Assembly: GCA_022508895.1 (NCBI GenBank)
Contig: JAFLUH010000002.1
Location: forward strand, 1 to 64,000
Length of the DNA stretch: 64,000 nucleotides
Direction of reading: 5' to 3'
Source: Oscillospiraceae bacterium
GTDB taxonomy: Bacteria; Bacillota; Clostridia; Oscillospirales; Ruminococcaceae
In this document: in pieces, positions 7,070 to 30,523 of the stretch
How the letters are laid out: every line of letters starts with the position of its first letter
How positions within the stretch are numbered: the first letter of the stretch is position 1
Notes under the pieces: generated by a model
The model's input: the letters and a program-made list of their open reading frames with translations, nothing else
What the model was told of the DNA's origin: nothing
Databases searched by the model: none
Position numbers and translations under genes: made by a program

Positions 7070-7123
7070 TTTTATGAGCCTGCAGTGATGGGAAAACTTT
7101 TATTCGGTTGTTGGGAGGAAGCT

Positions 7124-9371: not shown

Positions 9372-10106
9372 ATGATGAGAGATATAAGAGTTTGTGTTAT
9401 TACAGATAACGAATTCTTATTTCATGGATTTAAGAAAATTATTCAGAAATATAGCGGTATTTACGAATTTGAATTCTACTATTCGTATTTCAATACAGGA
9501 ATTATGCCTGAATGTTTTGCGAAAGAAGAATATCGTCCTATTTGCCTGAAAAATGAAAATGAACAATTTTTCAGCAAATTTGATCTTTTTTTGTCAATAC
9601 ATTGTAAGCAGTTATTCCCAAAAGAGCTGGTAATGAAACATAGATGTATTAATATACATCCCGGTTTTAATCCTTATAATCGAGGGTGGTTTCCACAGGT
9701 GTTTAGTATTATTGATAAACAACCGGTCGGAGTTACTATTCATGAAATGGACGCAGAGTTAGATCACGGACCTATCATAATTCAGCAAGAGATACCCATT
9801 TATGAACACGAAACATCTTTTGACGTTTATCAAAAAATTCAGGAATTAGAGTTGAAATTGCTCGCTGATAATTTGGAGGTACTGATCTTAGGTGATTACA
9901 AAACATGGCTTCCCGATTTTGAGGGAAATATAAATAATGAGGCAGATTTCCGTTCGCTGTGCGAGCTGGATATGGATCGTGTGGGAACATTCAGAGAGTT
10001 TTTAGATATTTTGCGTGCAACTACTTTTGCACCTTATGATAATGCATATTTTTTAGATAAAGATAATAATAAAATTTTTGTATCCGTCAATCTAAAAAAG
10101 AGTTGA
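9372..10106 (+). CDS. sugar N-formyltransferase (VioF/Fmt-like)
   Basis: 244-aa enzyme of the N10-formyltetrahydrofolate-dependent formyltransferase fold. The catalytic Asn-His-Asp set is visible in CINIHPGFNPYNRG and ELDHGPIIIQQEI. It is shorter than methionyl-tRNA formyltransferase and lacks its tRNA-binding C-terminal domain. With a DegT aminotransferase, RmlA and RmlB directly downstream, it most likely N-formylates a dTDP-4-amino-4,6-dideoxyhexose (the VioF role), although the 3-amino isomer (FdtF/QdtF role) cannot be excluded. The gene is strikingly AT-rich compared with both neighbours, which suggests separate acquisition. Two adjacent ATGs (9372, 9375) follow an AAGGAG site. The second has the better 7-bp spacing and the product would differ by one residue. 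Confidence 0.82.
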   Translation: MMRDIRVCVITDNEFLFHGFKKIIQKYSGIYEFEFYYSYFNTGIMPECFAKEEYRPICLKNENEQFFSKFDLFLSIHCKQLFPKELVMKHRCINIHPGFNPYNRGWFPQVFSIIDKQPVGVTIHEMDAELDHGPIIIQQEIPIYEHETSFDVYQKIQELELKLLADNLEVLILGDYKTWLPDFEGNINNEADFRSLCELDMDRVGTFREFLDILRATTFAPYDNAYFLDKDNNKIFVSVNLKKS

Positions 10107-10138
10107 TAAAAGGAAATCGCACAGTAAATCGTGGTGAG

Positions 10139-10234
10139 ATGAAAAATATTATCAAAAAAAGAGACAGGGTTTTCGCTTTTTTAGATCATATTGTGCAAGA
10201 TAATATAAATTTTTACAGAAAAGAGAGCCTATGA
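10139..10234 (+). CDS. possible small ORF coupling formyltransferase and aminotransferase genes
   Basis: A 31-codon frame (begins MKNIIKKRDRVFAF, ends RKESL) fills the gap between the two sugar genes, and its TGA overlaps the next ATG as ATGA. The frame stays open upstream to a TTG at 10103 that overlaps the previous stop as TTGA, which would give 43 residues. The peptide is basic and not hydrophobic. It could be a translational coupling leader or the remnant of a lost gene. There is no good ribosome binding site for ATG 10139, so it may not be translated on its own. Confidence 0.3.
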   Translation: MKNIIKKRDRVFAFLDHIVQDNINFYRKESL

Positions 10235-11346
10235 AAGAGGATATTTTTGTCACAAGACCTTCAATGCCGCCATTAGAAGAATACGTTGAGGAGATTAAAG
10301 AAATCTGGGAGAGTCATTGGCTCACCAACATGGGTTCAAAGTACAAGCAATTTCAGGCAGAACTTGAAAAAATGCTTGATGTACCTCATATCGTATTTTA
10401 TTGCAACGGTCATCTTGCACTGGAAAATATCATAGAGGCGATGGACTTTCCCAAAGGCGGTGAGGTGATCACTACTCCTTTCACCTTTGCATCGACAACT
10501 CACGCAATCGTCAGATGCGGATTAAAACCTGTTTTTTGCGACATTAATGATAGCGACTACACTATTGATGCCAAAAAAATTGAAGCCTTAATAACCAACA
10601 AGACCGTAGCGATTATCCCTGTTCATGTGTACGGGAATATGTGTGACGTTGAAGCTATCAAAGCCGTTGCAGACAAGCATGATCTAAAAGTTATCTATGA
10701 TGCGGCACACGCTTTTTCTGTCAAGTATAAAGGTCGAAGCTCCGCTTGTTTCGGTGATGCATCAATGTTCAGCTTTCATGCAACAAAGGTTTTTAATACC
10801 ATTGAGGGCGGTGCAGTCTCCTTTCATGATGATGAGCTGGTTCAGAAGCTGAATGAGCTTAAAAACTTCGGAATTCATGGATCGGAGGAAGTACCTTACA
10901 TAGGCGGAAACGCTAGAATAAATGAGTTCTGTGCAGCTATGGGAATCTGTAATCTTCGTCATGTTGATGAAGAGATTTCAAAGCGAAAGACGGTCGTAGA
11001 GCGCTATAGAAGTCATTTGAAGAATGTTGCCGGCATCAAACTCAGCCCTGTCCAGGCTGATGTTGAGCCCAATTATGCATATTTTCCGGTATTATTCGAT
11101 GAAGCCGTATTTGGTTCAAACAGAGATGAGGTCTTCACAAAGCTTGCAGAAAACGGAATATACGCAAGAAAATATTTCTATCCGCTAACAAATACATTTG
11201 ATTGCTACAAAGGAATGTTTACCACTGACAATACACATATTGCACTTGAAATCAGTATGAAAGTGCTGACGCTCCCGCTTTATGCAGATTTAAGCATGGA
11301 TGACGTCGACAGAATTTGTGAAATAATTCTACTTTGTAAAAAATGA
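10231..11346 (+). CDS. DegT/DnrJ/EryC1-type dTDP-sugar aminotransferase (VioA-like)
   Basis: 371-aa PLP enzyme that transaminates a keto-deoxysugar nucleotide using glutamate. Seen: [13 protein letters not shown] at the start of the cofactor domain, the IYDAAHAF aspartate that contacts the pyridine nitrogen, and the PLP lysine in [13 protein letters not shown], a form typical of the VioA/FdtB/QdtB branch. Length is normal for the family. The substrate would be dTDP-4-keto-6-deoxyglucose from RmlB (or a 3-keto isomer, for which no isomerase is seen), and the product would feed the adjacent formyltransferase. No 3,4-ketoisomerase gene is present, which favours amination at C4. Start ATG 10231 overlaps the TGA of a tiny upstream frame. 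Base composition is more AT-rich than rmlA/rmlB. Confidence 0.85.
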
Positions 11347-11359
11347 GGAAGGCAAGAAA

Positions 11360-12241
11360 ATGAAAGGCATGATCCTCGCCGGCGGCAAAGGCACCCGTCT
11401 CTACCCCAGCACCATCGCAGTCAGCAAGCAGCTGCTGCCCATATACGACAAGCCCCTCATATACTACCCGCTGTCCGTTCTTATGCTGGCAAGCATTCAG
11501 GACATTCTGATAATCTCCACGCCTCAGCACGTCGAGAGCTACCGGGAACTGCTACGCGACGGCTCCCAGCTCGGTATACATATCGAGTACAAGGTGCAGG
11601 GAACGCCCCGTGGACTTGCCGACGCATTTATTATAGGCGAGGAGTTTATCGGAAACGACAGCGTATGCTTAGTCCTCGGCGACAACGTGTTTTACGGGCA
11701 GTATTTTACGAACCTGCTGAACAACGCAAAGCAGCAGGCAGAAGCCTCAGGCGCAGCCATCTTCGGTTATCCCGTAAAAAATCCCAGTGAATTCGGCGTG
11801 GTAGAGTTTGATGAAAACAATCATGTTATTTCCCTTGAAGAAAAGCCGAAGCACCCCAAATCCACCTTTGCCGTTCCCGGACTGTATTTTTATGACAACA
11901 GCGTGGTGGAGATCGCAAAAAACGTCACGCCCTCCGCCCGTGGAGAGATAGAGATAACCTCGGTCAACAACACCTATCTTGAACAGGGAAAGCTGCGTGT
12001 AACGCTTATGGGCAGAGGAATGGCGTGGCTTGATACCGGCTCACCCAAGGGAATGCACAAGGCGGGAGATTTCGTAAAAACGGTGCAGGAAATGCAGGGT
12101 TTTTACATTTCCTGTATCGAGGAGATAGCATGGCGGCGCGGATTTATCACCTTGGAGCAGCTTCACTCTCTGGGTGAGCAAATGAAAATGACCGATTACG
12201 GAAAGTACATTTTATCGCTGAGGCAGGAGGACGGGCTGTGA
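11360..12241 (+). CDS. rmlA: glucose-1-phosphate thymidylyltransferase RmlA
   Basis: 293-aa nucleotidyltransferase that makes dTDP-glucose from dTTP and glucose-1-phosphate, the first step of dTDP-deoxysugar synthesis. The signature [16 protein letters not shown] opens the protein and [16 protein letters not shown] follows, as in all RmlA proteins. The length is standard. It overlaps rmlB by 4 nt (GTGA), which implies translational coupling. No RmlC or RmlD is present in the window, so the pathway here appears directed to the amino/formamido sugar rather than to dTDP-rhamnose, unless those genes lie elsewhere. Confidence 0.97.
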
Positions 12242-13233
12242 AGATCATTGTGACCGGCGGAGCAGGATTTATCGGCTCAAACTTTATTTTTTACCTGAGA
12301 AAAAAATATCCCGATTACAGGATAGTTTGTATCGACAAGCTGACATACGCAGGTAACCTGCATACGCTTAAAGGTATATTGAACAGCGAAAATTTCAGGT
12401 TTGTCAAGGCGGATATATGCGACCGCAAAGCTGTTGATCCTTTGTTTGCGGAGGAACGCCCCGATATTGTGGTAAATTTTGCCGCAGAATCCCATGTTGA
12501 CCGCTCTATCGAGAATCCTGAGATATTTCTTCAGACAAATATAATCGGCACTGCCGTTCTTATGGACGCCTGCCGTGAGTACGGGATAAAGCGGTTCCAT
12601 CAGGTCTCCACCGACGAGGTATACGGCGACCTGCCCCTTGACCGCCCCGACCTGTTTTTCACCGAGCGGACACCCCCGCACACCAGCAGCCCATACAGCT
12701 CCTCAAAGGCGTCCGCAGACCTTCTTGCCCTTGCCTATCACAGAACCTATCAGCTTCCTGTCACCATCAGCCGCTGCTCCAACAACTACGGTCCTTACCA
12801 ATTCCCTGAAAAGCTGATACCGCTGATGATCGTCAACGCCCTTAACGACAAGCCCCTTCCCGTTTACGGTGAGGGAATAAATGTCCGTGACTGGCTTTAC
12901 GTCGAGGATCACTGCAAGGCTATCGATATGATAATCCATAACGGCAAAGACGGCGAGGTCTACAATGTGGGCGGTCACAACGAGATGAGAAACATGGACA
13001 TCGTAAAGCTGATCTGCAAAGAGCTGGGAAAACCCGAATCACTGATAGAACACGTTACCGACCGCAAGGGTCATGACATGAGATATGCCATAGACCCCGC
13101 AAAAATTCATGCCGAGCTTGGCTGGCTGCCTGACACTAAGTTTGAAAACGGCATAAAGACCACAATAAACTGGTATATTAACAACAAAAATTGGTGGGAA
13201 AGCATCTTAAACGGAGCTTACAGGAATTACTGA
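12238..13233 (+). CDS. rmlB: dTDP-glucose 4,6-dehydratase RmlB
   Basis: 331-aa extended short-chain dehydrogenase that converts dTDP-glucose to dTDP-4-keto-6-deoxyglucose. The NAD-binding [12 protein letters not shown] is at the N terminus, STDEVYGDL follows, and the catalytic YxxxK is in [30 protein letters not shown] is characteristic of RmlB. It starts with GTG at 12238, overlapping the rmlA stop. Its product is the expected substrate of the VioA-like aminotransferase just upstream. Confidence 0.97.
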
Positions 13234-13380: not shown

Positions 13381-14688
13381 ATGGATAAGCAAAAAACAGT
13401 CTATATATGTTTTTCAACCGATATTGTACATAGCGGGCACCTGGCAATATTGAAAAAAGCGGCTCAGCTTGGGGAACTGATCGTCGGTGTACTTTCGGAC
13501 AGTACGGTGGCCGGCTTTAAACGTTATCCCTTGCTTCCGTTTGAGGAGAGAAAAAACCTGTTTGAAAACATAAAAGGTGTAAGCCGTGTGATTTGTCAGG
13601 ACACGCTTAGCTATCGGGGTGTGATCAAACAGCTCCGCCCCGATATCATAGTGCATGGAGACGATTGGACTCAAGGCTTCCTGCAGCCAATTCGTGCAGA
13701 GGTGGAAGCCCTTCTGAAAGAGTACGGAGGAGAGCTCGTTGAATTTCCCTATGACGAATCGCCGGAATTGCGTACTATTGAGCATCGCAGGTTTGCAGAA
13801 GCCGCTCTTCCTGACTTTCGCAGGGCCAGACTGAAAAAATTATTGGAGCTGAAAGGGTTCGTCCGCATTATTGAGGCGCACAGCGGATTGAGCGGACTGA
13901 TCGCAGAGACGGCAACGGTATATCAGGACGGCGTCGGACGCTCCTACGACGGTATGTGGCTGTCCTCCCTGTGCGACTCCACCATTAAGGGGAAGCCGGA
14001 TATAGAACTGGTGGATATGACCAGCCGTATGCAGACGATAAACGAGATCATGGACGTGACTACCAAGCCGATCATTCTGGACGGAGATACCGGCGGACTG
14101 AGCGAGCATTTTGTGCATCATGTAAGGACGCTTGAGCGGATAGGCGTATCCGCCGTCATTATCGAGGACAAGATCGGGCTGAAAAAGAATTCTTTGTTTG
14201 GTACGGAAGTGGAGCAGCGTCAGGATTCCATTGAAAATTTCTGCTCTAAAATACAGGCTGGAAAGTATGCAAAGCGCACGAAGGATTTCATGATAATTGC
14301 CCGGATAGAGAGCCTGATACTGGAGCAAGGAATGGAGGACGCTCTGAAGCGGGGCTTTGCTTATGTTCAGGCAGGAGCGGGCGGCATCATGATCCACAGT
14401 CGCCGCAGTGAGCCGGACGAAATTTTTGAGTTTGTGCGCCGTTTTCGGGAGAAAGATAAGGTCACGCCTGTTGTTGTAGTACCTACCTCATTTAATACCG
14501 TGACGGAGGAAGAGTTTCAAAAGCGGGGCGTGAACATCGTTATTTATGCCAATCAATTGATCCGCAGTGCGTTCCCTGCTATGATGGGTACTGCAAAGTG
14601 CATTCTGGAGCACCACAGAGCCAAGGAGGCGGACGAGCGGTGTCTGTCGATAAATGATATTCTTAACCTTATTCCGGAGAAAGGGTGA
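13381..14688 (+). CDS. pepM: cytidylyltransferase-phosphoenolpyruvate mutase fusion (PntC-PepM type)
   Basis: 435-aa bifunctional enzyme. Residues 1-135 are a nucleotidyltransferase with the H17-x-x-H20 motif (VHSGHL) and the HGDDW segment. They would activate a phosphonate as its CMP derivative. Residues about 145-435 are phosphoenolpyruvate mutase, which makes the C-P bond by rearranging PEP to phosphonopyruvate. The diagnostic EDK-x5-NS loop is intact (IEDKIGLKKNS, about 262-270), with GDTGG upstream. PEP mutase fused to such a cytidylyltransferase is a known architecture for nucleotidyl activation of phosphonates headed to glycans or lipids. It starts the phosphonate block and lies six bases before the aldolase gene. 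This is the strongest single marker that the polymer carries a C-P bond. Confidence 0.95.
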   Translation: MDKQKTVYICFSTDIVHSGHLAILKKAAQLGELIVGVLSDSTVAGFKRYPLLPFEERKNLFENIKGVSRVICQDTLSYRGVIKQLRPDIIVHGDDWTQGFLQPIRAEVEALLKEYGGELVEFPYDESPELRTIEHRRFAEAALPDFRRARLKKLLELKGFVRIIEAHSGLSGLIAETATVYQDGVGRSYDGMWLSSLCDSTIKGKPDIELVDMTSRMQTINEIMDVTTKPIILDGDTGGLSEHFVHHVRTLERIGVSAVIIEDKIGLKKNSLFGTEVEQRQDSIENFCSKIQAGKYAKRTKDFMIIARIESLILEQGMEDALKRGFAYVQAGAGGIMIHSRRSEPDEIFEFVRRFREKDKVTPVVVVPTSFNTVTEEEFQKRGVNIVIYANQLIRSAFPAMMGTAKCILEHHRAKEADERCLSINDILNLIPEKG

Positions 14689-14694
14689 TCGCAC

Positions 14695-15711
14695 ATGGGA
14701 AGAATAAGCCTGCTTGATTGTACTTTACGGGATGGCGGCTATGTCAATAACTGGAGATTTGGTTCACAAAAAATAAACGATATCATTCGGGGGCTTGCGA
14801 GATCCGGGATCGATATTATTGAAATAGGCTTTCTGCGTGATGAGCAATATGATCCTGACAGAGCCGTTTTTGCCCGCTGTGAAGAAATAAAGTCTGTTAT
14901 TGGCGACACAAAAGACGTTAAATTTGCTGCGATGATCGAGGCGAAGGAAGATGTATCAAAACATTTTCCTCTTGAAAAGGCGGCGCTGCTGAAGGACGCC
15001 GGGCTCAGTTTTATCCGCATCATGGCATGGGAATGGAAGCTCGAGGAGCATCTGGAGTATTGCAAAAGAGTAAAGGAGCTGGGTATCGAGATATCCATTC
15101 AACCCACATCGGTGGTGGATTACACAGATGAACGATTCATGCAATTGTTGGATATGGCAAATGAAATAAAGCCTTTTTCCCTGTATATTGTGGACACCTG
15201 GGGCACGGAAATGCCCGGAAAGATCCGACATCTTGCCGAAATGGCAAACAAGACTCTGGATCCCGATATTGCGTTGGGTTATCACGGTCACAACAACAAA
15301 ATGCAGGGAATGGCCTGTCTGGAAGCTATTTTGGGAATGGATATGTCAAGGCAGGTCCTGTGTGATGTGAGCCTTGGAGGGATCGGGAAAGGTCCGGGCA
15401 ATCTGCAAACGGAGGTTATTGCGGATCTGCTGAATGAAGAAGAAGGCGGCGGATATGATGTGGATAAGCTTTGTGATTTATATTCAAAGAATGTGAGCGA
15501 TTTTTTCTACGAAAACCCATGGGGCTACTCACTATATCATTTTATCGGCAGCAGGAATTTGGTGACGCAGAATTATGCCACCTACTTCCGTCAGATGCGC
15601 TACGGTGAAGACGTATTTTACAAATTCGTTCAAAGCCTGAAAGGTCGGGAAAAGGTCGTCTTCAACAGAGAATTTACCGAAAATCGCCTTAAGGAGTTGG
15701 GACTGAAATGA
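14695..15711 (+). CDS. DRE-TIM metallolyase, HMGL/4-hydroxy-2-oxoacid aldolase-like
   Basis: 338-aa TIM-barrel enzyme of the HMG-CoA-lyase-like superfamily. The opening LLDCTLRDGGYVNNW gives the catalytic Arg-Asp pair, and GYHGHNN supplies the two metal-binding histidines, so a divalent-metal active site is intact. It resembles the catalytic half of 4-hydroxy-2-oxovalerate aldolase (DmpG) and lacks that family's C-terminal communication domain. Such enzymes join or split an alpha-keto acid enolate and an aldehyde. The gene overlaps the following TPP enzyme by 4 nt (ATGA), so the two products are probably made together. The substrate is unknown. A phosphonate aldehyde or a keto-sugar precursor would fit the neighbourhood. 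Confidence 0.8.
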   Translation: MGRISLLDCTLRDGGYVNNWRFGSQKINDIIRGLARSGIDIIEIGFLRDEQYDPDRAVFARCEEIKSVIGDTKDVKFAAMIEAKEDVSKHFPLEKAALLKDAGLSFIRIMAWEWKLEEHLEYCKRVKELGIEISIQPTSVVDYTDERFMQLLDMANEIKPFSLYIVDTWGTEMPGKIRHLAEMANKTLDPDIALGYHGHNNKMQGMACLEAILGMDMSRQVLCDVSLGGIGKGPGNLQTEVIADLLNEEEGGGYDVDKLCDLYSKNVSDFFYENPWGYSLYHFIGSRNLVTQNYATYFRQMRYGEDVFYKFVQSLKGREKVVFNREFTENRLKELGLK

Positions 15712-17306
15712 AGGTTTCAGATTATATCGTCGGCGTTCTGGAAAAGGAAAACGTAACGGACATTTTTGGCGTTCCGGGCGTAGGATGCGGCCATTTTACC
15801 GATTCTCTGATAAGAAGCAGTATCCGTAATCATTTGACATACCATGAGCAGGGTGCTGCGTTCGCTGCCTGTGCATACGGTCAGGCTTCCGGAAACATAG
15901 GTGTCGCTTATGCAACGGCAGGACCCGGAGCGACAAATCTTCTTACAGGTGTTGCCAATGCTTATGTTGACTCTGTTCCGACGCTCTATATTGTCGGAGA
16001 CAAGGATCTGGACACGCTCAAGGGCGACCTGAAAATTCGGCAAAAAGCGTCCCAAGAGGTAGACATAGTGGAAATGGCACGTCCCGTGACAAAATGGAGC
16101 TATCAGATCACAGATGTCAGAGACGTGCAGTGTGCACTGGAAAAGGCATTTTATATCGCCCGAAGCGGCAGACCCGGTCCGGTGCTGCTGGATATTCCCA
16201 GCAGTATCCAAAGAATGGAATACTGCGAGGGACAGAGATTTGCTCCTGACGGCAGGAAAGAGTTTGACGTACATAGTCTGACAGATATCATAAACAGTTG
16301 TTCACGTCCGCTTTTCCTTGTCGGCGGAGGCGTCAGGCAGGCAGGTATGATGGGTCAGCTCAAGGCTGTCTCATCAAAAGCCAACATTCCCATTGTCGCT
16401 ACCGTAGTGTGCGACGACGAATTTTTTGATTTTGAAAACTATATCGGCTTTTTCGGAGTAGACGGCGATGTATGCGCCAATCAGGCTATCAGGGACTGCG
16501 ATGCTTTGATCTGTCTCGGCACACGGCTGAATATCAAGGAGGTCGGAACGGAACGCACCCGATTTGCACAGCAGGCACGGATAATAAGGATAGATATAGA
16601 TCAGGCGGAATTGGACTACAGGCTCGGCAATGAAGAGGTGATCCATGCAGACCTGAAGGACGTTATTCCTGCGCTGCTGGCGGAGGCTTCCGCACTCAAG
16701 GAAAAAGAGGTCTGGGTCAAGCGGGACATAAAAAGAAACGAAAAAGCAGCGTCTTCAAACGGAGCAGCCCTTGAACTGACGTGCGCTCTGGCAGAGCAGA
16801 TCCCGGAGAACGTAGACATAACCGTAGGGATCGGAAGTCATAGAAGGTGGTTTATTTCCGGCAGGGTCGTAAAAAAAGGATGGCGGATCTTTCAGTCCGC
16901 AGGACTTGCGTCGATGGGCTTTGCCCTGCCTGCGGCGATCGGCGTACATTTCGCAGCCAAGCGCCCCGTTGTCTGTCTGGACGGCGACGGCGGACTGATG
17001 ATGAATGTTCAGGAGCTGCAGCTGCTCCATCGGGAAAATCTGCCCATCACGGTGGTAGTGTTTAACAACCGCTGTCTGGGCGAGATCATGGAATTTCAGA
17101 AAAAGATTTTCGGTGGGAACTATTTTGCGACGACGGAAGAAACGGGATATTTATCCGCCGATTTTGAAGCGCTGGCTGCGGCATTTAAGCTTGCATACAG
17201 GAGAGTAAGCAGTATTGACGAGCTGAAGCTGCTGAAGGCTGATTTCAGCGGACCAAGTCTGATAGAAGTAGTCATACCGGCTGATAACGGGGAGGCAGGT
17301 TTATGA
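15708..17306 (+). CDS. acetolactate-synthase-like thiamine-diphosphate enzyme
   Basis: 532-aa TPP-dependent enzyme with the three-domain layout of acetolactate synthase and relatives. The catalytic glutamate is in the YHEQGAAFAA segment, and the cofactor motif runs DGDGGLMMN to FNN near 425-455. It should decarboxylate a 2-keto acid and either release an aldehyde or ligate the two-carbon unit to an acceptor. It overlaps genes on both sides by 4 nt, tying it to the DRE-TIM aldolase upstream and the iron alcohol dehydrogenase downstream. It is not the phosphonopyruvate decarboxylase, which is a separate, shorter gene at 18887. A second, divergent member of this family is at 28716-30503. No small regulatory subunit gene is present, arguing against a branched-chain amino acid role. 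Confidence 0.8.
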   Translation: MKVSDYIVGVLEKENVTDIFGVPGVGCGHFTDSLIRSSIRNHLTYHEQGAAFAACAYGQASGNIGVAYATAGPGATNLLTGVANAYVDSVPTLYIVGDKDLDTLKGDLKIRQKASQEVDIVEMARPVTKWSYQITDVRDVQCALEKAFYIARSGRPGPVLLDIPSSIQRMEYCEGQRFAPDGRKEFDVHSLTDIINSCSRPLFLVGGGVRQAGMMGQLKAVSSKANIPIVATVVCDDEFFDFENYIGFFGVDGDVCANQAIRDCDALICLGTRLNIKEVGTERTRFAQQARIIRIDIDQAELDYRLGNEEVIHADLKDVIPALLAEASALKEKEVWVKRDIKRNEKAASSNGAALELTCALAEQIPENVDITVGIGSHRRWFISGRVVKKGWRIFQSAGLASMGFALPAAIGVHFAAKRPVVCLDGDGGLMMNVQELQLLHRENLPITVVVFNNRCLGEIMEFQKKIFGGNYFATTEETGYLSADFEALAAAFKLAYRRVSSIDELKLLKADFSGPSLIEVVIPADNGEAGL

Positions 17307-18406
17307 AGCTGTATAATCCGACCAAGGTATATTTTGAAAACGGATGTGTCGCAAAATACGGCAATGAGATCGTCGGCAAGCGTATATTGATACTGACAGG
17401 AAAAAATTCCTCCAAGGCAAATCACTCTCTGGACGACGTGACAGACGGCGTCGGCGCCGATGCGCAAATTGCCGTTTTTGATGAAGTGGAATCGGACCCT
17501 TCCATTGCAGCCGTTGTAAAGGCGGCAAAGCAGTATCGCAATTTCAAGGCAGATGTGTGTATCGGAGTTGGAGGCGGTTCTGCGATAGATGCGGCAAAGG
17601 CGGTCGCCGTTTTATTGGCGAATGATGAAAATGCGGATATCGAGAGACTGTTTTTTGAGGAAAGAAAGGCGCGGCACCTTCCTGTCGTGGCTGTACCTAC
17701 CACCTGCGGGACAGGATCGGAGGTCACGCCGTTCTCCGTTTTGACAGACACTGAAAAGAATACGAAGCGGACGATTTTTTCCCAGCTGTATCCGCAGCTT
17801 GCTCTGGTGGATCCCCGATATTTGAGAACGATTTCTTATAAAGACTGCGTTTCGACCTGTGCCGACGCACTTTCCCATTTGATCGAAGCTTTTTTATCGT
17901 CTCGGGCAAATGATTATAACCGTTTATACAGTACTGCGGGATTAAATTTATTCGGGGAGTTTAAAGATCATCTGTCGGAGCCGGGGAAGTTTGAAAAGGC
18001 GGGGGACACCGTTCGGGAAAAGATGATGGCCTGCGCCATGCTTGGCGGATATGCGATCGCAGCAAACGGTACAAGCATTCCGCACGGGTTAGCCAACACC
18101 ATTACACACGATCTGAAAATTTCTCACGGCAGGTCTGTGATTTTATTTATTCCCGGTTATCTGCGGAATTTTGAAAATCGGGAAGCCGTGGACCGCATTG
18201 TGAAAATGCTGGGCTTTGGCAGTGTCGATGAATTGGAGGACTATCTGCATTTTATTCTGGGCAGCGTTTCCGTTCCGGAAAAGCTGTGGCACAGTGAAAT
18301 TGAGAAAATGCTTTCCAACACCCATAAATTATCCAGCTATCCCTATGAGATGACACGGGATATTCTGGAAAAATATCCGGGCAGTCTGTTTTGCATACAG
18401 TCATAG
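17303..18406 (+). CDS. iron-containing alcohol dehydrogenase, likely phosphonoacetaldehyde reductase
   Basis: 367-aa group III metal-dependent alcohol dehydrogenase. GGGSAIDAAKA binds the nucleotide, VAVPTTCGTGSEVTPF is the family signature, and the metal ligands are visible in CADALSHLIEAF (Asp, His), PHGLANTITH and ISHGRSV. Enzymes of this family next to PEP mutase and phosphonopyruvate decarboxylase reduce phosphonoacetaldehyde to 2-hydroxyethylphosphonate. No aminoethylphosphonate transaminase is present in the window, which favours the hydroxy product. The 4-nt overlap with the upstream TPP enzyme leaves open that its real substrate is the aldehyde made by that enzyme. Confidence 0.82.
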   Translation: MKLYNPTKVYFENGCVAKYGNEIVGKRILILTGKNSSKANHSLDDVTDGVGADAQIAVFDEVESDPSIAAVVKAAKQYRNFKADVCIGVGGGSAIDAAKAVAVLLANDENADIERLFFEERKARHLPVVAVPTTCGTGSEVTPFSVLTDTEKNTKRTIFSQLYPQLALVDPRYLRTISYKDCVSTCADALSHLIEAFLSSRANDYNRLYSTAGLNLFGEFKDHLSEPGKFEKAGDTVREKMMACAMLGGYAIAANGTSIPHGLANTITHDLKISHGRSVILFIPGYLRNFENREAVDRIVKMLGFGSVDELEDYLHFILGSVSVPEKLWHSEIEKMLSNTHKLSSYPYEMTRDILEKYPGSLFCIQS

Positions 18407-18431: not shown

Positions 18432-18890
18432 ATGGAGTATACCTGCAGGGAAGACCTGAACCTCGAAGAAGGTGAAAAGCTGGTTTATGTGCCCATGGCG
18501 GCGGATATTATCCATCCGGGACACATAAATATCCTGAGAACGGCAAGAGAGCTGGGGAAGGTAATGGTCGGTCTGTTTACCGACGATGCCATCAGAAGCT
18601 ATAAGCCGGAGCCGTACATGGACTATGAGAAGAGAAAAATCGTTATTTCCGAAATAGTGGGCGTGGCATTCGTTGTGCCTCAGCTCACGAAAGATTATCA
18701 ACCTAATCTTAAAATGTTTCGTCCTGAGTTTTTTGTACATGGGACGGACTGGAGGAGCGGACCCCTTGCCGAAGTGCGCCGTCAGGCGATCGATTTGATG
18801 GCACAATGGGGCGGCGAAGTTATCGAGCCGGAGTACACACAGGGAGTATCGTCTACTGAACTGAAAAAGAAGGCAAAGGGTAAGGAATGA
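18432..18890 (+). CDS. stand-alone cytidylyltransferase
   Basis: 152-aa nucleotidyltransferase of the TagD/PntC-like fold: PMAADIIHPGHINIL gives the HxGH motif and HGTDWRSGP the second substrate-binding loop. It parallels the N-terminal half of the PEP mutase fusion but is divergent, so the operon encodes two activating enzymes. It overlaps the phosphonopyruvate decarboxylase gene by 4 nt. The likely role is CTP-dependent activation of hydroxyethylphosphonate, or of a second phosphonate, for the LicD transferases. A CDP-alcohol role is an alternative. Start ATG 18432 follows AAAGGAACAGG. Confidence 0.82.
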   Translation: MEYTCREDLNLEEGEKLVYVPMAADIIHPGHINILRTARELGKVMVGLFTDDAIRSYKPEPYMDYEKRKIVISEIVGVAFVVPQLTKDYQPNLKMFRPEFFVHGTDWRSGPLAEVRRQAIDLMAQWGGEVIEPEYTQGVSSTELKKKAKGKE

Positions 18891-20011
18891 AAGCAGAAGT
18901 ATTTGTGCGCAGCATCGGCTCCGATTTCTACGCAGGCGTACCTGATTCGCTGTTGAATCCGCTGTGCAGTTATCTGACGGAAATCTACGGTATAGGCGAA
19001 CACCATGTCATTGCGGCAAATGAAGGTAACGCAGTCGGACTTGCGGCAGGATATCATCTGGCGACCGGTAAAGTGCCGGTGGTCTATCTTCAGAACAGCG
19101 GACTGGGCAATATCGTCAACCCGGTGGTGTCGCTGCTCAACGGCAGGATATACGGCATTCCCTGCCTGTTTATCGTGGGCTGGCGGGGGGAACCGGGGGT
19201 CCACGACGAGCCGCAGCACCTGTTCCAAGGTGAGATAACCCTGTCCTTGCTGGAAAACATGGATATTCCCGCTTTTGTTATTGACAGGACCACCACGGAC
19301 GAGCAGGTCCAAGGCAAGCTGAACGAGTACCGTGAGCTGTTCGCTCAAGGCAGACAGGCGGCTTTTGTCATACGCAAGGGCGGTCTGGAATACGGCGGAA
19401 AAATCCTCTGCAATAACCGTTTCACCCTGCTTCGGGAGGAGGCGATCAGGCATATTGCCGCCTGCTCCGACGGCGGAGTGGTAGTCTCCACCACAGGCAA
19501 GGCAAGTCGGGAGCTGTTTGAGATAAGAGAAGCAAACGGGCAAAGCCATAAGTACGATTTCCTGACGGTAGGCTCCATGGGACACAGCAGCTCCATTGCG
19601 CTTGGTATCGCATTCAACAAGCCCGAAACAAAAGTCTGGTGCATCGACGGCGACGGAGCGGTGCTTATGCACATGGGAGCCATGGCTCTCATCGGCGCAA
19701 ACCGACCTGCCAACCTTATTCACATTGTACTCAACAATGCGTCTCATGAGTCCGTGGGCGGTATGCCTACCGTGGCAGGGCGATTGGACCTGCCTGCCAT
19801 TGCCGAAGCCTGCGGTTACCCCAATGCCGTGTCGGTGAGTACGGCTGAGGAGCTGGACGAAGCGCTGACTGCGGCAAAAGCGAGATGCGAGCTGACGTTC
19901 ATCGAGGTAAAATGTGCCCTTGGAGCACGGGAAAATCTGGGGCGCCCCACTGCTGCGCCTGTTGAAAATAAGCAGTCGTTTATGGAATTTTTGCAGGGTG
20001 GATCGATATAG
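18887..20011 (+). CDS. ppd: phosphonopyruvate decarboxylase
   Basis: 374-aa TPP enzyme that decarboxylates phosphonopyruvate to phosphonoacetaldehyde, pulling the unfavourable PEP mutase reaction forward. The family opening FYAGVPDSLLNPL, the catalytic glutamate in AANEGNAVGLAAGY, GWRGEPG, and the cofactor motif DGDGAVLMHMG to LNN are all present, and the length is typical. It shares ATGA with the upstream cytidylyltransferase. Its product would be reduced by the iron alcohol dehydrogenase encoded two genes upstream. Confidence 0.95.
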   Translation: MKAEVFVRSIGSDFYAGVPDSLLNPLCSYLTEIYGIGEHHVIAANEGNAVGLAAGYHLATGKVPVVYLQNSGLGNIVNPVVSLLNGRIYGIPCLFIVGWRGEPGVHDEPQHLFQGEITLSLLENMDIPAFVIDRTTTDEQVQGKLNEYRELFAQGRQAAFVIRKGGLEYGGKILCNNRFTLLREEAIRHIAACSDGGVVVSTTGKASRELFEIREANGQSHKYDFLTVGSMGHSSSIALGIAFNKPETKVWCIDGDGAVLMHMGAMALIGANRPANLIHIVLNNASHESVGGMPTVAGRLDLPAIAEACGYPNAVSVSTAEELDEALTAAKARCELTFIEVKCALGARENLGRPTAAPVENKQSFMEFLQGGSI

Positions 20012-20044: not shown

Positions 20045-21559
20045 ATGAGCAACCAAAAGGACAATGTAATAATGCAGCAAACCGAGCTGCTGAAAAACAC
20101 GACCGAAATGACTGAATATCTCGATATCCTGAAAACGCTTCGGTCGGAATATCTTATCATACTCGGAGTGAAGGACTCGCCGGGCAAAAGAATGCTTCCG
20201 TCTATGCTGCAGCAAATTCGTGAGCTCGGTTTTTCAAAGTTCGATAACAGCTTATGGTATATGTATGCAGGGATCATATACAAGTCTGAGGTGCTGCTTG
20301 ATGAGTCAGGCATGGTACCTGAAATGCCTGTTTTTTATGAAGGTGATATCGGCGGGTATCATATTGAAATAGGCAGCGAATCCTACTTGAAAGGGAATCG
20401 CAGTATAATTTCGATAGACGGGAACGACTATTCCACGGACGGGATAGGCGTGAATATTGTTGTCTATGACGTTTATAACAACCAGCTTGTTGATTCCATC
20501 GCTTATGATTCTCACAGCAACCCCGCCGGTATATTTAAAAGAGGAAAACGTGCGGCAGAATGTAAAAAAGTCAACACTGAAAGTGCTCTGATACAGATAC
20601 TCGGCAAATTGGAAGTTCTTACCCAAAAAATCGATTTAGAAAATTATAAAGCGGAGTATGTTCTCTGGAACAATGCCCGCATGGACGGCGAAACCACTTT
20701 GGACGCCAAAAAGCGCTTTTTCAGGTCTCTGCGGACGGCGGATCGGAATATGTTCATCTGGCAGAAAGCGACGACAATAATACTGGCAGAGTTTGGAAGA
20801 ATATGCAGGGAAAATAATATTGATTACTGGCTGGACTGCGGAACGCTTTTGGGAGCTGTACGTCACGGCGGTCCTATCCCGTGGGACGACGATATGGACA
20901 TAGGTATGCTGAGAAAGGACCTGCCTAAACTGGAAAAGGCCATTGCCGAAGCGGATACATTTATACGGCTGAACAAATTCTTTTCGATAATAGTTCCTTA
21001 TTATGCAATGAACGTTTACAGACTTCAGTTTAAAGATCCTTCTGCTGCTATGTTTGTTGACATTTTTATATATGACTACTGCGAAAGTGACAGCCTCGAA
21101 AGATGGCGCAAGCTCATAACGGACAGGGAAAGCTATTTTTCACAGTTGACTGAATTTGCACCTGTCGCCAAAGCTGAGCCGGGAAGGAGCATTGCTGAAT
21201 ATTTTGCCGTTACCGATCCGGATCATATCAGTGAGATCGCTTCGATCTCAAATAAGATATTGGAATCGTCTGAAACAGTCGAAAACGGTGATTACATAAT
21301 ATGGGGATTTGATAACTGCCCTTATGTAGAAAATAAAAAGCCTATTTACAGAACATCTGACATCTTTCCGCTGAAGGAACTGGAATTTAACGGTAAGCCG
21401 TATAAGGTTCCGAATCAATATGAAAAATATTTATATAAGTTTTATGGAGATATATATACTTTGCCCGACGACCTGCTGACACATATGCATGTTGATGTAT
21501 CACAGGAAGTGATAGATAAGTGCACTGAGATAATAGAGCAATATTCCGATAAGCTTTGA
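20045..21559 (+). CDS. LicD-family phosphotransferase with N-terminal FAM3/ILEI-like domain, copy 1
   Basis: 504-aa protein. Residues about 20-165 are the FAM3/ILEI-like domain: EYLDILKTLRSEYLIILGVKD, IRELGF, WYMYAGIIYKS, then a second half with ISIDG and GVNIVVYD. Residues about 240-500 are LicD, a nucleotidyltransferase-fold enzyme that moves phosphocholine-like groups from CDP or CMP donors to sugars. The core DYWLDCGTLLGAVRHGG and the metal-binding IPWDDDMDIGM (about 276-286) are intact. Ending a phosphonate operon, it most likely transfers a CMP-activated phosphonate to a glycan. It is a tandem paralogue of the next gene. Start ATG 20045 follows AAAGGAG. No membrane segment is seen. Confidence 0.87.
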   Translation: MSNQKDNVIMQQTELLKNTTEMTEYLDILKTLRSEYLIILGVKDSPGKRMLPSMLQQIRELGFSKFDNSLWYMYAGIIYKSEVLLDESGMVPEMPVFYEGDIGGYHIEIGSESYLKGNRSIISIDGNDYSTDGIGVNIVVYDVYNNQLVDSIAYDSHSNPAGIFKRGKRAAECKKVNTESALIQILGKLEVLTQKIDLENYKAEYVLWNNARMDGETTLDAKKRFFRSLRTADRNMFIWQKATTIILAEFGRICRENNIDYWLDCGTLLGAVRHGGPIPWDDDMDIGMLRKDLPKLEKAIAEADTFIRLNKFFSIIVPYYAMNVYRLQFKDPSAAMFVDIFIYDYCESDSLERWRKLITDRESYFSQLTEFAPVAKAEPGRSIAEYFAVTDPDHISEIASISNKILESSETVENGDYIIWGFDNCPYVENKKPIYRTSDIFPLKELEFNGKPYKVPNQYEKYLYKFYGDIYTLPDDLLTHMHVDVSQEVIDKCTEIIEQYSDKL

Positions 21560-21612
21560 TAAGCACTTGATATTTACGGCTGACCGCTACAAAAATAAAG
21601 GAGAATACGAAC

Positions 21613-23130
21613 ATGAGCAACCAAAAGAACAGCGCAATAATGCAGCAAACTGAACTGCTGAGAAACACTACCGAAATGATCGAATATCTCGATATTCTGA
21701 AAACACTCAGATCGGAATATCTTATCATACTCGGCGTGAAGGACACACCCGGCAGAAAAATGTTCCCGTCTATGATACGTCAAATTCGTGAGCTGGGATT
21801 TTCAAGGTTTGACAATCAGATGTGGTATATGTATGGCGGTATTATATACAAGTCTGAGGTCCTTCTTGATGAGTCAGGCATGGTGCCTGAAATGTCGGTT
21901 TGCCGCGAATGTGATATTGATGGGCACCGCATTGAAATAGTCAGCGAATCTTACATGAAAGGAAATCGCAGTATAATTTCAATAGACGGGAACAACTATT
22001 CCGCTGACGGTATAGGCGTGAATATCGTTGTTTATGACCTTGACAACAACGAGCTTGTCGATTCCGTTTCCTATGACACTCACCGCACGTTCTTCGGAAT
22101 GTTTACAAGAGGAGAGCGTACTGTGGAATGTAAAAAAATCGACACTGAAAATGCCTTGGTTCAGGTGCTTGGCAAATTGGACGCTCTGTCCCAAAAAATC
22201 GATCTGAATAATTACAAAACGAATTATGTCCTTTGGAATAATGCCCGCATTGATAGCGAGACCTCTTTGGACGCCAGAAAGCGCTTCTTCGGTTCTCTGC
22301 AGACAGAGGATCAAAAGATGGCTGTCTGGCAGAAATCAATGACGATACTGTTGGCTGAATTGGCAAGAATATGCGATGAAAATAATATTGATTACTGGCT
22401 GGATTGCGGAACACTTTTGGGAGCGGTTCGTCACAAAGGCTTTATCCCTTGGGACGACGATATGGATATAAGCATGATGAGAAAGGACCTGCCCAGACTG
22501 GAAAAAGCAATTGCCGAAGCGGATACATTTATACGGCTGAATAGCTTCTTTTCGATACGACCGGCTCCTCATGCAGCTACCCTGCATAAAGTTCAATTTA
22601 AAGATCCTCTTGCCGATCCGTTTGTTGATATTTTTTTCTTTGATTATTGTGAAAATGACAGCATCGAACGCTGGCATAAATACATGAAAGACAGGGAAAA
22701 TTATTCATCACAAGTGGCTAAATATGAGCCTATTCCCAATAATGACCCGGGAAAGAGCCGCTCTTTTTGGTACGCTGTTACCGATCAGGATCACATAAAT
22801 GAGCTTACTTCAATTTCAAATAAAATGTTGAGTTCCTCCGAAACGATAGAAAACGGAGAATATATAATTGTAGGATTTGACAAGTACCCTTATTCAAAGG
22901 ACAGAAAACGTATTTACAGGGTATCTGATGTCTTTCCGCTGAAGGAATTGGAATTCGGCGGAAGGCTGTATAAGGTCCCGAATAATTATGAAAGATATTT
23001 GGATGTATTTTTCGGAGAAGATATATATACTTTGCCCAACGATATGATAATTCATCAGCATTTTGAAATATCCCAGGAAATGGTGGATAAGTGTACTGAA
23101 CTAATAGAAAAATACTCCGACAAGCACTGA
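21613..23130 (+). CDS. LicD-family phosphotransferase with N-terminal FAM3/ILEI-like domain, copy 2
   Basis: 505-aa tandem paralogue of the preceding gene, nearly colinear over its whole length. The N-terminal domain (SEYLIILGVKDTPG, IRELGFSRFDN, WYMYGGIIYKS, then SIDGNNYSADGIGVNIVVYD) and the LicD core (DYWLDCGTLLGAVRHKG, IPWDDDMDI) are conserved. The segment after the DDD motif differs: copy 2 has SIRPAPHAATLHKV where copy 1 has SIIVPYYAMNVYRL. This suggests a different acceptor or a different phosphonate donor, matching the presence of two cytidylyltransferases. It is the last gene of the operon before a strong terminator. Start ATG 21613 follows AAAGGAGAA. Confidence 0.87.
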   Translation: MSNQKNSAIMQQTELLRNTTEMIEYLDILKTLRSEYLIILGVKDTPGRKMFPSMIRQIRELGFSRFDNQMWYMYGGIIYKSEVLLDESGMVPEMSVCRECDIDGHRIEIVSESYMKGNRSIISIDGNNYSADGIGVNIVVYDLDNNELVDSVSYDTHRTFFGMFTRGERTVECKKIDTENALVQVLGKLDALSQKIDLNNYKTNYVLWNNARIDSETSLDARKRFFGSLQTEDQKMAVWQKSMTILLAELARICDENNIDYWLDCGTLLGAVRHKGFIPWDDDMDISMMRKDLPRLEKAIAEADTFIRLNSFFSIRPAPHAATLHKVQFKDPLADPFVDIFFFDYCENDSIERWHKYMKDRENYSSQVAKYEPIPNNDPGKSRSFWYAVTDQDHINELTSISNKMLSSSETIENGEYIIVGFDKYPYSKDRKRIYRVSDVFPLKELEFGGRLYKVPNNYERYLDVFFGEDIYTLPNDMIIHQHFEISQEMVDKCTELIEKYSDKH

Positions 23131-23227: not shown

Positions 23228-25546
23228 TTAAACCTTTACCGTCCTCGTAAACCTCTCAACCAGATCGTACCCGTCCCAAACCAGATCAAAATCCATCGTA
23301 TGTCCAATCGGCACAACACGGTCCACACCCTTGATGCCCGACCTGAGCAGCGGCTCCACTATCGCTTTATCCCCAAGCAAGCCTATAGTCTGACAATGAG
23401 TATCATTGCAGAAATCCCGTACCGCCATAATATCATCGCAGTCATATTCATAGAAATATCCGGAATTTCCCCTATGCTCCATAAGCTCATGGGGCAGCTC
23501 TGACACCTGAACTCTCACAAGCCGGTTGTCGCCCCCGTGTACGCATTTCATGCCGCATATCCCGCAGGCAGCCGCAGTATATTCCGTGGCAAGCTTATCC
23601 ACTCCCTGTATCGGCTGAAACAGGTATCTTTCCTTTACCGGTGCGGACAGACTATCCCAGAATATCTCCTTTGCTTCCTCTTTTGCGCCGCCTGTCCATA
23701 CCACCGCACGGGGACTTGAGCAGGCATTCTGATCGGATAAATAGGTATCGTTGTAAAAATCGGCTGCAATGCGTGCTGCCGCCTTGCCGTCATCGCTCAC
23801 TGCACGCATATACTCGTCGGAATCTATCACCGCCAGCGAGTAGCGGTCAGCAAATGTTATCTCTGTCGCTCTTGGCGGCAGCGGTGATTTGCGCAGCTCC
23901 GCAACGGTATCGTCGCCGCCCCAGATAACACGCACATCGCACATAGCCGACAGCATATCGTTGATCTCCCTATCACGCTCATACCGCAGCAATACGATAT
24001 ACGGCTTCATATCGGGGTGCTTTTCAAGTGCTGCACAGATAGCCCCGTTGATTATCCTCACCTGCGGGAACTCCCTTGAGGTTACTCTCACCGCATTTGC
24101 GTTGCCGCAGAGCAGCCCCGCAAAAAGCGAATACGCATAGTTCACCGGCACATTCGAGGGCGCAACATGAAAAGCCGCCCCACGTCCCACACGCAGCTCA
24201 CCGTCCGGCACGAACCTCTTCTTCATAGCCAAAACCGAGGATTTCCTCAGCCAGAAGCCCAGAGTTGCCACATCGGGAAACGCCTTTGCCTCAGCACTTT
24301 GCATAAGCTCCTTCGACAGATCGTTCAGAAAGTCGATTATATCGTCGCCGAAAGGCATTTTAGGCGCAGCCTTGGGAATATTCAGCAGCGTCTCCCTGTT
24401 TCCGATAAGATAGGTGATCTTATCCGATGCCGAAGCTTCGGTATCGCCTTTATTTACGGCACGCTCAGCCGCAAAGGTATCGCTGCAGCCCCGCAGCTCC
24501 GCATTTTTGAGCCGTCCCAGTATCCTGAAATACTTGCCCTTCCGTCCGCAGGGGCAGTCGTCCTCGCCCAGTATCACGCCCTCGTCCTCGGTGAGCAGAC
24601 AATGTCCGGGATAGGATTCGGGAATGGTCGATACTACCTGAAGTATACCCCTTTCCCCTATCTCGCACTCGGAAAAATCCTCCGGTCTTCTTGCGATAAC
24701 GTCGGAAAAAACGCTTGCGTGCAGATGCCCCTGCTCGCACTCCATATAAATGCAGCCGGTCTGCTCCACCATACCGTAGTAATCATGGATATGCTCCAGT
24801 CCGCACACGTCCTTCAATGCCCTGCGAAACTCCTCGGGACTTACCGCTTCGCCGGCAAGCTTTTTCCAGCCGCCGCCGTGTATCAGTATCCCGTGGGACA
24901 GGTCAAAGCTCATGCCCTCGCCCTTTAAGCGCAGCAGCTCCTTGTAAAAATACTGCCACACCATAAAGGTAAAGCCGAAAAGGAGTATCCTCTGTCCCTT
25001 ATTCTGCTCCAAAAAAGCCTGCAAGCCCGACCTGTCAAGCTGCATATCGTCGTTCAGCGCATATATCTTCTTTGCGCCGAAAATCGAAAAGCCCAGTATA
25101 CCTGCGCCTCTTGCCGAAAACATATTGCGGTCCTTCACCACCGAGGGGCAGTCCAGTATTATCATGGGCATTCTGGCTGAGCCTGTGAAGTCGTTCACTA
25201 TCTTGACCATAGCCTTTTGCTGGTTGGAGGAGGTGGTGCGGTCAAGGTAAATTTTTGACACCTTCTGCCCCGACGTCCCCGAGGAGGTCATGGTCTTCAC
25301 TATTCCGTCCTCGGAAACGCTTTTCAGCGACAGCTCCTTGAAAAGCCTGACAGGGAGAAAGGGGATATCCCTGTATGAGCTTACCTTTTGTCCGTCGTAT
25401 GAAACGGCGTTTAAAATGCGAGCATATTCGGGGCAATTTTTTCTGTGATGCTCGGTAAGCTCCGCCAGTCTTTCGGTGAGCAGCCTTTCCTTTTCCGCCT
25501 TTTCAAGGGAATAAGGCGAAATATTCAGCAATTCCTCAAAGCTCAC
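23228..25546 (-). CDS. LuxE acyl-protein synthetase fused to LuxC acyl reductase
   Basis: 772-aa fusion. Residues about 1-370 are LuxE-like, an acyl-adenylating and acyl-transferring domain, with the nucleotide loop MTSSGTSGQKVSKIY and DYYGMVEQTG. About 390-772 are LuxC-like, an NADPH-dependent fatty acyl reductase that makes an aldehyde. Its catalytic cysteine is in QNACSSPR (about 609), the same context as in LuxC. In bioluminescence these reside on separate proteins. Here they are one chain in an operon with an acyl carrier protein, an acyl ligase and a thioesterase, so the role is probably reduction of a carrier-bound acyl group to an aldehyde for glycan or glycolipid synthesis. No luciferase genes are present. 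The start is GTG 25546, two bases after the thioesterase stop. It is the last gene of its operon. Confidence 0.88.
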   Translation of the reverse strand: MSFEELLNISPYSLEKAEKERLLTERLAELTEHHRKNCPEYARILNAVSYDGQKVSSYRDIPFLPVRLFKELSLKSVSEDGIVKTMTSSGTSGQKVSKIYLDRTTSSNQQKAMVKIVNDFTGSARMPMIILDCPSVVKDRNMFSARGAGILGFSIFGAKKIYALNDDMQLDRSGLQAFLEQNKGQRILLFGFTFMVWQYFYKELLRLKGEGMSFDLSHGILIHGGGWKKLAGEAVSPEEFRRALKDVCGLEHIHDYYGMVEQTGCIYMECEQGHLHASVFSDVIARRPEDFSECEIGERGILQVVSTIPESYPGHCLLTEDEGVILGEDDCPCGRKGKYFRILGRLKNAELRGCSDTFAAERAVNKGDTEASASDKITYLIGNRETLLNIPKAAPKMPFGDDIIDFLNDLSKELMQSAEAKAFPDVATLGFWLRKSSVLAMKKRFVPDGELRVGRGAAFHVAPSNVPVNYAYSLFAGLLCGNANAVRVTSREFPQVRIINGAICAALEKHPDMKPYIVLLRYERDREINDMLSAMCDVRVIWGGDDTVAELRKSPLPPRATEITFADRYSLAVIDSDEYMRAVSDDGKAAARIAADFYNDTYLSDQNACSSPRAVVWTGGAKEEAKEIFWDSLSAPVKERYLFQPIQGVDKLATEYTAAACGICGMKCVHGGDNRLVRVQVSELPHELMEHRGNSGYFYEYDCDDIMAVRDFCNDTHCQTIGLLGDKAIVEPLLRSGIKGVDRVVPIGHTMDFDLVWDGYDLVERFTRTVKV

Positions 25547-25548
25547 AT

Positions 25549-26241
25549 CTACACCCCCAATTTTTCCATGATAAGCTCCGCCACTTTTTCGCAGTGCTTA
25601 TTGATAAAGAAATGTCCGCCCGTATATTCCGCAAGCTCGCAGCAGCCTGTAAAATGCCTTTTCCACAGCTCCATTTCCTCTCTTGGGATATCCTCCGGCG
25701 AATAAAGAAGCAGTGCGGGAATATCCGTTGTAAAATCAATGCCTTCAAAATCATATCTGCCGATCATCAGGTAGTCCGCCTTAAAAAGCGGCAGATAAAT
25801 ACGCCAGAAGGTCTCGCTGTCCACAAGCTGCTCAGGTATCCCACCGAAGCGAATGGTTACTTCCCGTGTATATTCGTCCAATTTGTCGGGATCGCACCGT
25901 GTCAGATTGACCACCAGCTTAGGCTGATGCGAAGCCATAAAAATATATTTGGGAGCGGGCAGCTCTTTGGTTTTTGTCACATACCGCAAAACCTCCAGCG
26001 CCGCAACACACCCCATGCTGTACCCCAGCAGCGCATATTCTCCGCCGCTGTATTTTTCCCGCATCTGCGCATACAGATCCCGTGATAGCTCCTGATATGT
26101 CTCGCAGAACTTTTCCTTGCGCCTTGTGCCATGACCGGGGTACTCCAGCTTTACAAGCTCTGTTTTCCCTTCAAGGGCTTTCCCAAGCTCATTAAAAAAT
26201 GCAGCCGTTCCGCCTGCATAGGTAAAGCAAAAAAGCTGCAT
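25549..26241 (-). CDS. type II thioesterase
   Basis: 230-aa alpha/beta hydrolase of the GrsT/RifR type that hydrolyses acyl groups from carrier proteins. The nucleophile is in GYSMG, the acid in LYSPEDIP, and the histidine in YTGGHFFINKH. The opening LFCFTYAGG is the usual oxyanion-hole strand of this family. Such enzymes edit stalled or wrong acyl chains, and here the partner would be the acyl carrier protein at 33144. Start ATG 26241 follows GGAGGCAG. Confidence 0.87.
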   Translation of the reverse strand: MQLFCFTYAGGTAAFFNELGKALEGKTELVKLEYPGHGTRRKEKFCETYQELSRDLYAQMREKYSGGEYALLGYSMGCVAALEVLRYVTKTKELPAPKYIFMASHQPKLVVNLTRCDPDKLDEYTREVTIRFGGIPEQLVDSETFWRIYLPLFKADYLMIGRYDFEGIDFTTDIPALLLYSPEDIPREEMELWKRHFTGCCELAEYTGGHFFINKHCEKVAELIMEKLGV

Positions 26242-26252
26242 AACTGCCTCCG

Positions 26253-28696: not shown

Positions 28697-28715
28697 ATTT
28701 AACTCCTTACTTTCC

Positions 28716-30503: not shown

Positions 30504-30523
30504 TCTCTCACTTTTCAGGTAGG

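Follow-up and report, generated by a model that had tools for sequence, protein, structure and literature searches.

Gene content of the pepM operon

The window analysed here, a 64,000-nucleotide (nt) stretch of an Oscillospiraceae bacterium genome, carries three consecutive open reading frames (ORFs) for an aldolase, a thiamine diphosphate (ThDP) enzyme and an Fe-dependent alcohol dehydrogenase (Fe-ADH), placed between the phosphonate genes pepM and ppd. The aldolase and the ThDP enzyme form a known kind of cassette, and inside a phosphonate operon this pair stands in an unusual, single-instance setting. The genes of the operon are as follows.

13381..14688, +, PepM with an N-terminal HIGH-type cytidylyltransferase-like domain (TIGR02320, 406 bits, over the cut-off; tree; motif table)
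14695..15711, +, unfused aldolase of 338 amino acids (aa), DRE-TIM HMGL-like, a 4-hydroxy-2-oxovalerate-aldolase-like pyruvate aldolase (PF00682; PDB 3dxi, 1nvm and 8ih7; structure model)
15708..17306, +, ThDP enzyme of 532 aa, ALS/YerE-like carboligase or decarboxylase (PF02776, PF00205 and PF02775; grouping; fold match)
17303..18406, +, Fe-ADH of 367 aa, not of the PhpC-like type of other PepM loci (PF00465; tree; PDB 9jx4)
18432..18890, +, CTP2, standalone Fom1-type phosphonate cytidylyltransferase (PDB 5x3d, 153 bits; HxGH and SST motifs intact)
18887..20011, +, Ppd, phosphonopyruvate decarboxylase (TIGR03297, 472 bits, over the cut-off)
20045..21559, +, LicD 1, LicD-type phosphotransferase (PF04991, 121 bits)
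21613..23130, +, LicD 2, tandem paralogue of LicD 1 (PF04991, 119 bits)

The ORF positions bear out what a sequence-only reading had described, namely three genes joined by consecutive 4-nt overlaps, ATGA both times, and catalytic motifs are present in all three proteins, as it had also proposed. That reading had set the trio apart from the cytidylyltransferase and Ppd genes, a separation that disappears on inspection of the spacing, the gap between feadh and ctp2 being just 25 nt. The other intervals are 6 nt (pepM to ald), an overlap of 4 nt (ctp2 and ppd), 33 nt (ppd to licD) and 53 nt (between the licD genes). Because these gaps are short compared with the 147 nt ahead of pepM, the simplest reading is that pepM-ald-tpp-feadh-ctp2-ppd-licD-licD constitute one operon; promoter and terminator scans returned matches at chance level.

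The aldolase is a DRE-TIM metallolyase, with PF00682 over the cut-off, D13, H197 and H199 as metal ligands and a TIM-barrel fold; R12, D13, H197 and H199 are invariant across 36 aligned sequences. Its AlphaFold model (pLDDT 91) matches 3dxi and DmpG-type aldolases, with which it shares the fold, the Arg-Asp pair and the His-x-His metal site. It differs from them in that DmpG His21 corresponds to Tyr16, in that no acylating aldehyde dehydrogenase partner accompanies it, and in its score against the 4-hydroxy-2-oxovalerate aldolase family (TIGR03217), which is far under the family cut-off (55 versus 286 bits). Directly after the His-x-His-Asn-Asn motif it carries K202, a position occupied by L, F or M in 34 of 35 relatives; positions 111, 113, 291 and 292 are changed as well, hinting that the predicted pocket differs from that of its branched-sugar relatives.

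The ThDP enzyme retains E47, GDG at 426-428 and N453-N454. Its best sequence matches are acetohydroxyacid synthases, and its model (pLDDT 82) matches both these enzymes and JanthE, a YerE-like ligase. The decarboxylase-superfamily fold and the E and GDG motifs of the ErwE/YerE-like family are thus both present. In our grouping it falls with the ThDP enzymes of L231, L075 and L085 (L and G numbers are our handles for loci and genomes), in which the aldolase gene directly adjoins the ThDP gene, as well as with that of L113.

LicD 1 probably transfers the CMP-activated phosphonate onto glycan. It is 69% identical to LicD 2 (20045-23130), a similarity that points either to a duplication in the recent past or to the use of two acceptor sites. 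Both LicD proteins (20045-20760 and 21613-22328) share a domain of about 160 aa with a GT61-type glycosyltransferase (7085-7804) and with a protein of L242 that matches a LicD-like domain (14410-15309); this domain has weak similarity, below the Pfam cut-off, to the animal ILEI/FAM3 domain.

The aldolase-ThDP pair in other genomes

We surveyed 199 related genomes, together with samples of 391 genomes from the class and 399 from the phylum, for the aldolase. Its closest relatives there are 32-39% identical and mostly belong to fusions of 520-560 aa. Across 85,462 species genomes there are at least 80 aldolase loci, the best reaching 37-38% identity among the matches listed. One ORF of 760 aa, in L049 (1177-3456), appears by eye to fuse an aldolase to a KdsC-like phosphatase and an MptE-like domain, which suggests an ulosonic-acid-like route.

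Neighbours were counted at 86 aldolase loci drawn from the matches listed. A ThDP gene lies near the aldolase in 44, and 27 of these 44 also contain RfbF/RfbH genes for CDP-3,6-dideoxyhexose; essentially none is a PepM locus. The aldolase-ThDP pair is therefore a recurrent cassette, whose usual setting is a branched CDP-sugar locus of the ErwE/YerE kind. About 20 of the 86 loci have a NeuA-like cytidylyltransferase gene, and a ThDP gene is lacking from 17 of these. PepM is near the aldolase in a single locus (L208), where the aldolase adjoins NeuA-like and HAD genes and a ThDP gene is absent. In two different genomes (L232, 7006-8692; L242, 8250-9843) the locus has an unfused aldolase and a NeuA-like gene, and the ThDP enzyme next to them is broken into two ORFs at about the same position.

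ErwE, a YerE-like enzyme, takes 4-hydroxy-2-oxo acids rather than pyruvate as donors (PMC12247030). By analogy, a pyruvate aldolase next to a ThDP enzyme would supply such a donor: the aldolase would condense pyruvate with an aldehyde to form a 4-hydroxy-2-oxo acid, which the ThDP enzyme would decarboxylate to an acyl anion. The window ThDP enzyme has the family and fold of the ErwE/YerE-like ligases of erwiniose and yersiniose synthesis (JanthE, 8rph). The loci differ, however: theirs have genes for CDP-3,6-dideoxyhexose and lack pepM, whereas the window pair is flanked by pepM and ppd. No CDP-glucose 4,6-dehydratase scored over the cut-off in the window genome, so that the CDP-3,6-dideoxyhexose pathway typical of such systems is not found here by its dehydratase (RfbF/RfbH were not searched genome-wide). 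Since this dehydratase is absent, action of the pair on CDP-4-keto-3,6-dideoxyglucose, as in its relatives, is disfavoured.

Nor do the three genes travel together as a conserved unit, as Fe-ADH is near the aldolase in only 1 of 85 loci, versus 22 of 46 PepM loci. The sequence-only reading had named one finding that would tell against a phosphonate role, namely that the trio is widespread where pepM is missing. This holds for the pair (the 44 of 86 loci above) and does not hold for the exact trio, Fe-ADH standing outside the cassette.

The PepM lineage and its exchanged partners

PepM scored over the cut-off in 31 of the 391 class genomes and 15 of the 199 relatives, and 46 PepM copies, the window's own excluded, made up the neighbourhood set. 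The survey of co-occurrence with pepM that had been proposed from the sequence gave a negative answer: none of the 46 neighbourhoods has a ThDP gene, and the pair occurs mainly in non-phosphonate loci. The pair is not phosphonate-specific. One neighbourhood (L208 again) has an aldolase, a distant one, and a standalone HIGH-type cytidylyltransferase is found in none. Among the class genomes, PepM occurs in 31, the aldolase in 26 and both in 8; they lie within 10 kb of each other in the window and in G542 only, whose aldolase sits beside NeuA-like and HAD genes without a ThDP gene. With that single further case we do not claim that the aldolase and pepM are statistically associated. A second instance of the pair in a PepM locus was found neither in the class and phylum genomes, nor in the 46 PepM neighbourhoods, nor among the matches listed from the 85,462 genomes.

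Two modules are common at PepM loci. One joins a LicC-CyTase-PepM fusion (CyTase, cytidylyltransferase domain) to a PhpC-like Fe-ADH, and we infer it to be of the 2-hydroxyethylphosphonate (HEP) type; the other joins CyTase-PepM to a 2-aminoethylphosphonate (AEP) aminotransferase, PhnW-AepZ in AEP loci. In the tree, the window PepM falls inside the LicC/HEP-type clade of 22 rows (support 96/94), where the other 21 all have LicC and most have a PhpC-like Fe-ADH. This position rejects an AEP-type locus, which would carry PhnW-AepZ. The window thus combines a PepM of the HEP clade with Ppd, as expected of a HEP-type operon, and shares LicD and the glycan setting with HEP-type phosphonyl-tailoring operons.

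Other parts of that module are missing. A LicC-type (PntC) nucleotidyltransferase had no match in the window genome, although the same reference matched the LicC domains of other PepM loci, and a PhpC-like Fe-ADH is likewise absent, the best matches in the genome reaching 28-35% identity. The Fe-ADH of the operon, which aligns best with PDB 9jx4 (282 bits) and has the GGGS and D/H/H ligand motifs, is only 26-31% identical to the Fe-ADHs of PepM loci and branches outside their clade, excluding it as the ordinary HEP-locus reductase. CTP2 belongs to the Fom1 type: it is 52% identical over 133 aa to the CyTase domain of Fom1 (5x3d), of the fosfomycin pathway, with the same HxGH and SST motifs. 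Unlike that domain, it is a standalone gene beside a PepM whose own fused cytidylyltransferase-like domain (13381-13830) has lost the ISST motif. An ISST-type motif is likewise lost in all LicC-fused PepM proteins examined. Compared with the standard module, then, both the reductase and the activating enzyme are exchanged and two carbon-joining enzymes are added. Such an exchange fits a changed phosphonate product, although replacement by functional equivalents would look identical.

Candidate products of the operon

From the protein families, operon layout, phylogenetic positions and gene absences read in the sequence, we predict the substrates and products as follows. In our favoured reading, which we hold at a little under an even chance, the pair is a borrowed carbon-joining cassette, like those of ErwE-type branched-sugar loci, and elongates phosphonoacetaldehyde with pyruvate, as had been proposed for the trio. 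PepM and Ppd would supply phosphonoacetaldehyde, most likely the aldehyde used, and the aldolase would join it to pyruvate to give 4-hydroxy-2-oxo-5-phosphonopentanoate. The ThDP enzyme would release CO2, in the simplest case yielding 3-hydroxy-4-phosphonobutanal, or alternatively ligate the fragment to a second aldehyde or ketone. Fe-ADH would then reduce the carbonyl, CTP2 would form the CMP-phosphonate and LicD would attach the phosphonate to a surface glycan. Elongation is plausible because the pair is embedded in the pepM operon, starting 6 nt after pepM, overlapping the next gene and preceding ppd; because the dehydratase for a CDP-sugar acceptor is absent; and because the HEP reductase and LicC are replaced. 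Moreover, a substrate of CTP2 must bear a phosphonate or phosphate group, and profile searches found no kinase in the pepM-licD operon, which would leave the phosphonate as the only phosphorus handle in sight. The divergence of the aldolase pocket beside the metal site, at K202, is a further hint in this direction.

The product could be a new hydroxyalkylphosphonate of four or more carbons for surface glycans, such as 2,4-dihydroxybutylphosphonate, made through an ErwE-type cassette; we advance this tentatively, as somewhat less than an even prospect. To our knowledge, such a phosphonate branch has no described counterpart. A precedent for the proposed aldol reaction is RhiG, an aldolase of the rhizocticin pathway that links phosphonoacetaldehyde with oxaloacetate; it serves the synthesis of a small-molecule antibiotic, and we know of no ThDP partner for it.

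Several observations weigh against phosphonoacetaldehyde elongation. The nearest relatives of the pair all lie in non-phosphonate glycan loci, and the pair does not recur in the other PepM neighbourhoods. The closest enzyme to CTP2 activates plain HEP, and the Fe-ADH goes with PepM loci rather than aldolase loci. Finally, the pair might serve a branched sugar together with a convergent operon downstream, as transketolase, SDR and YerE-like parts also stand alongside aldolases in L231, L085 and L302. The genes that bear on this point are the following.

9372..13233, +, dTDP-4-formamido-sugar genes: formyltransferase, DegT aminotransferase, RmlA and RmlB, giving the glycan context upstream of pepM (Pfam/NCBIfam profiles)
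23228-33059, -, convergent operon: SDR, split transketolase, YerE-like ThDP enzyme, NeuB, AMP ligase, thioesterase and LuxE-LuxC fusion
28716-30503, -, second YerE-like ThDP enzyme, in the convergent operon
30524-31492, -, transketolase C part, in the convergent operon
31492-32316, -, transketolase N part, in the convergent operon

The convergent operon appears to encode an unusual carbon-joining pathway. A close counterpart exists in L302 (G330:C1), with 63% identity for LuxEC, 64% for the AMP ligase and 44% for the ThDP enzyme; there the aldolase is fused, and no NeuB was seen in the stretch fetched.

It is thus a credible prospect, though one we hold clearly below even, that one operon serves two products: PepM, Ppd, Fe-ADH, CTP2 and LicD would make and attach plain HEP, while the pair, together with the convergent transketolase/SDR/ThDP operon, would make a sugar of that glycan, C-branched or higher-carbon; dTDP-4-keto-6-deoxyglucose could, for instance, be the acceptor to which a 4-hydroxy-2-oxo acid donor is ligated. 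RmlA and RmlB would supply the 4-keto sugar, homologues of the pair belong to branched-sugar loci (the 27 of 44 with RfbF/RfbH), and aldolase, ThDP and transketolase genes stand in a row in L231, L085 and L075; the kinship of CTP2 with the Fom1 HEP cytidylyltransferase and the affinity of Fe-ADH for PepM loci agree with this division of labour. The lack of a CDP-glucose 4,6-dehydratase argues otherwise, as do the aminotransferase and formyltransferase, which already explain the dTDP sugar, the location of the pair in the pepM operon, apart from the transketolase genes, and the replacement of the HEP-type reductase.

We regard it as improbable that the ThDP enzyme alone joins phosphonoacetaldehyde and pyruvate in an acyloin, phosphonothrixin-like reaction, with the aldolase supplying or removing an unrelated keto acid. 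The ALS-like fold and the acetohydroxyacid synthases among its best matches would suit this chemistry, but a translationally coupled, recurrent pair implies that one enzyme feeds the other, and by the ErwE precedent the aldolase acts first (PMC12247030). Slightly more remote is mosaic shuffling, in which the pair would at present do nothing together with its neighbours, or would act on an imported or unknown substrate. Glycan islands are mosaics, and a second instance of the arrangement was not found among the matches listed; the reading frames and catalytic motifs, however, are all intact and the coupling is tight.

The phosphonate capacity of bacteria serves mostly to decorate the cell surface, where mainly AEP is known and HEP is inferred. 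Should phosphonoacetaldehyde be the substrate of the pair, a surface phosphonate would be made by carbon-carbon extension, bridging branched-sugar and phosphonate chemistry. Either way, a widespread and functionally unassigned aldolase family gains a testable role, the supply of 4-hydroxy-2-oxo acid donors to ThDP ligases.

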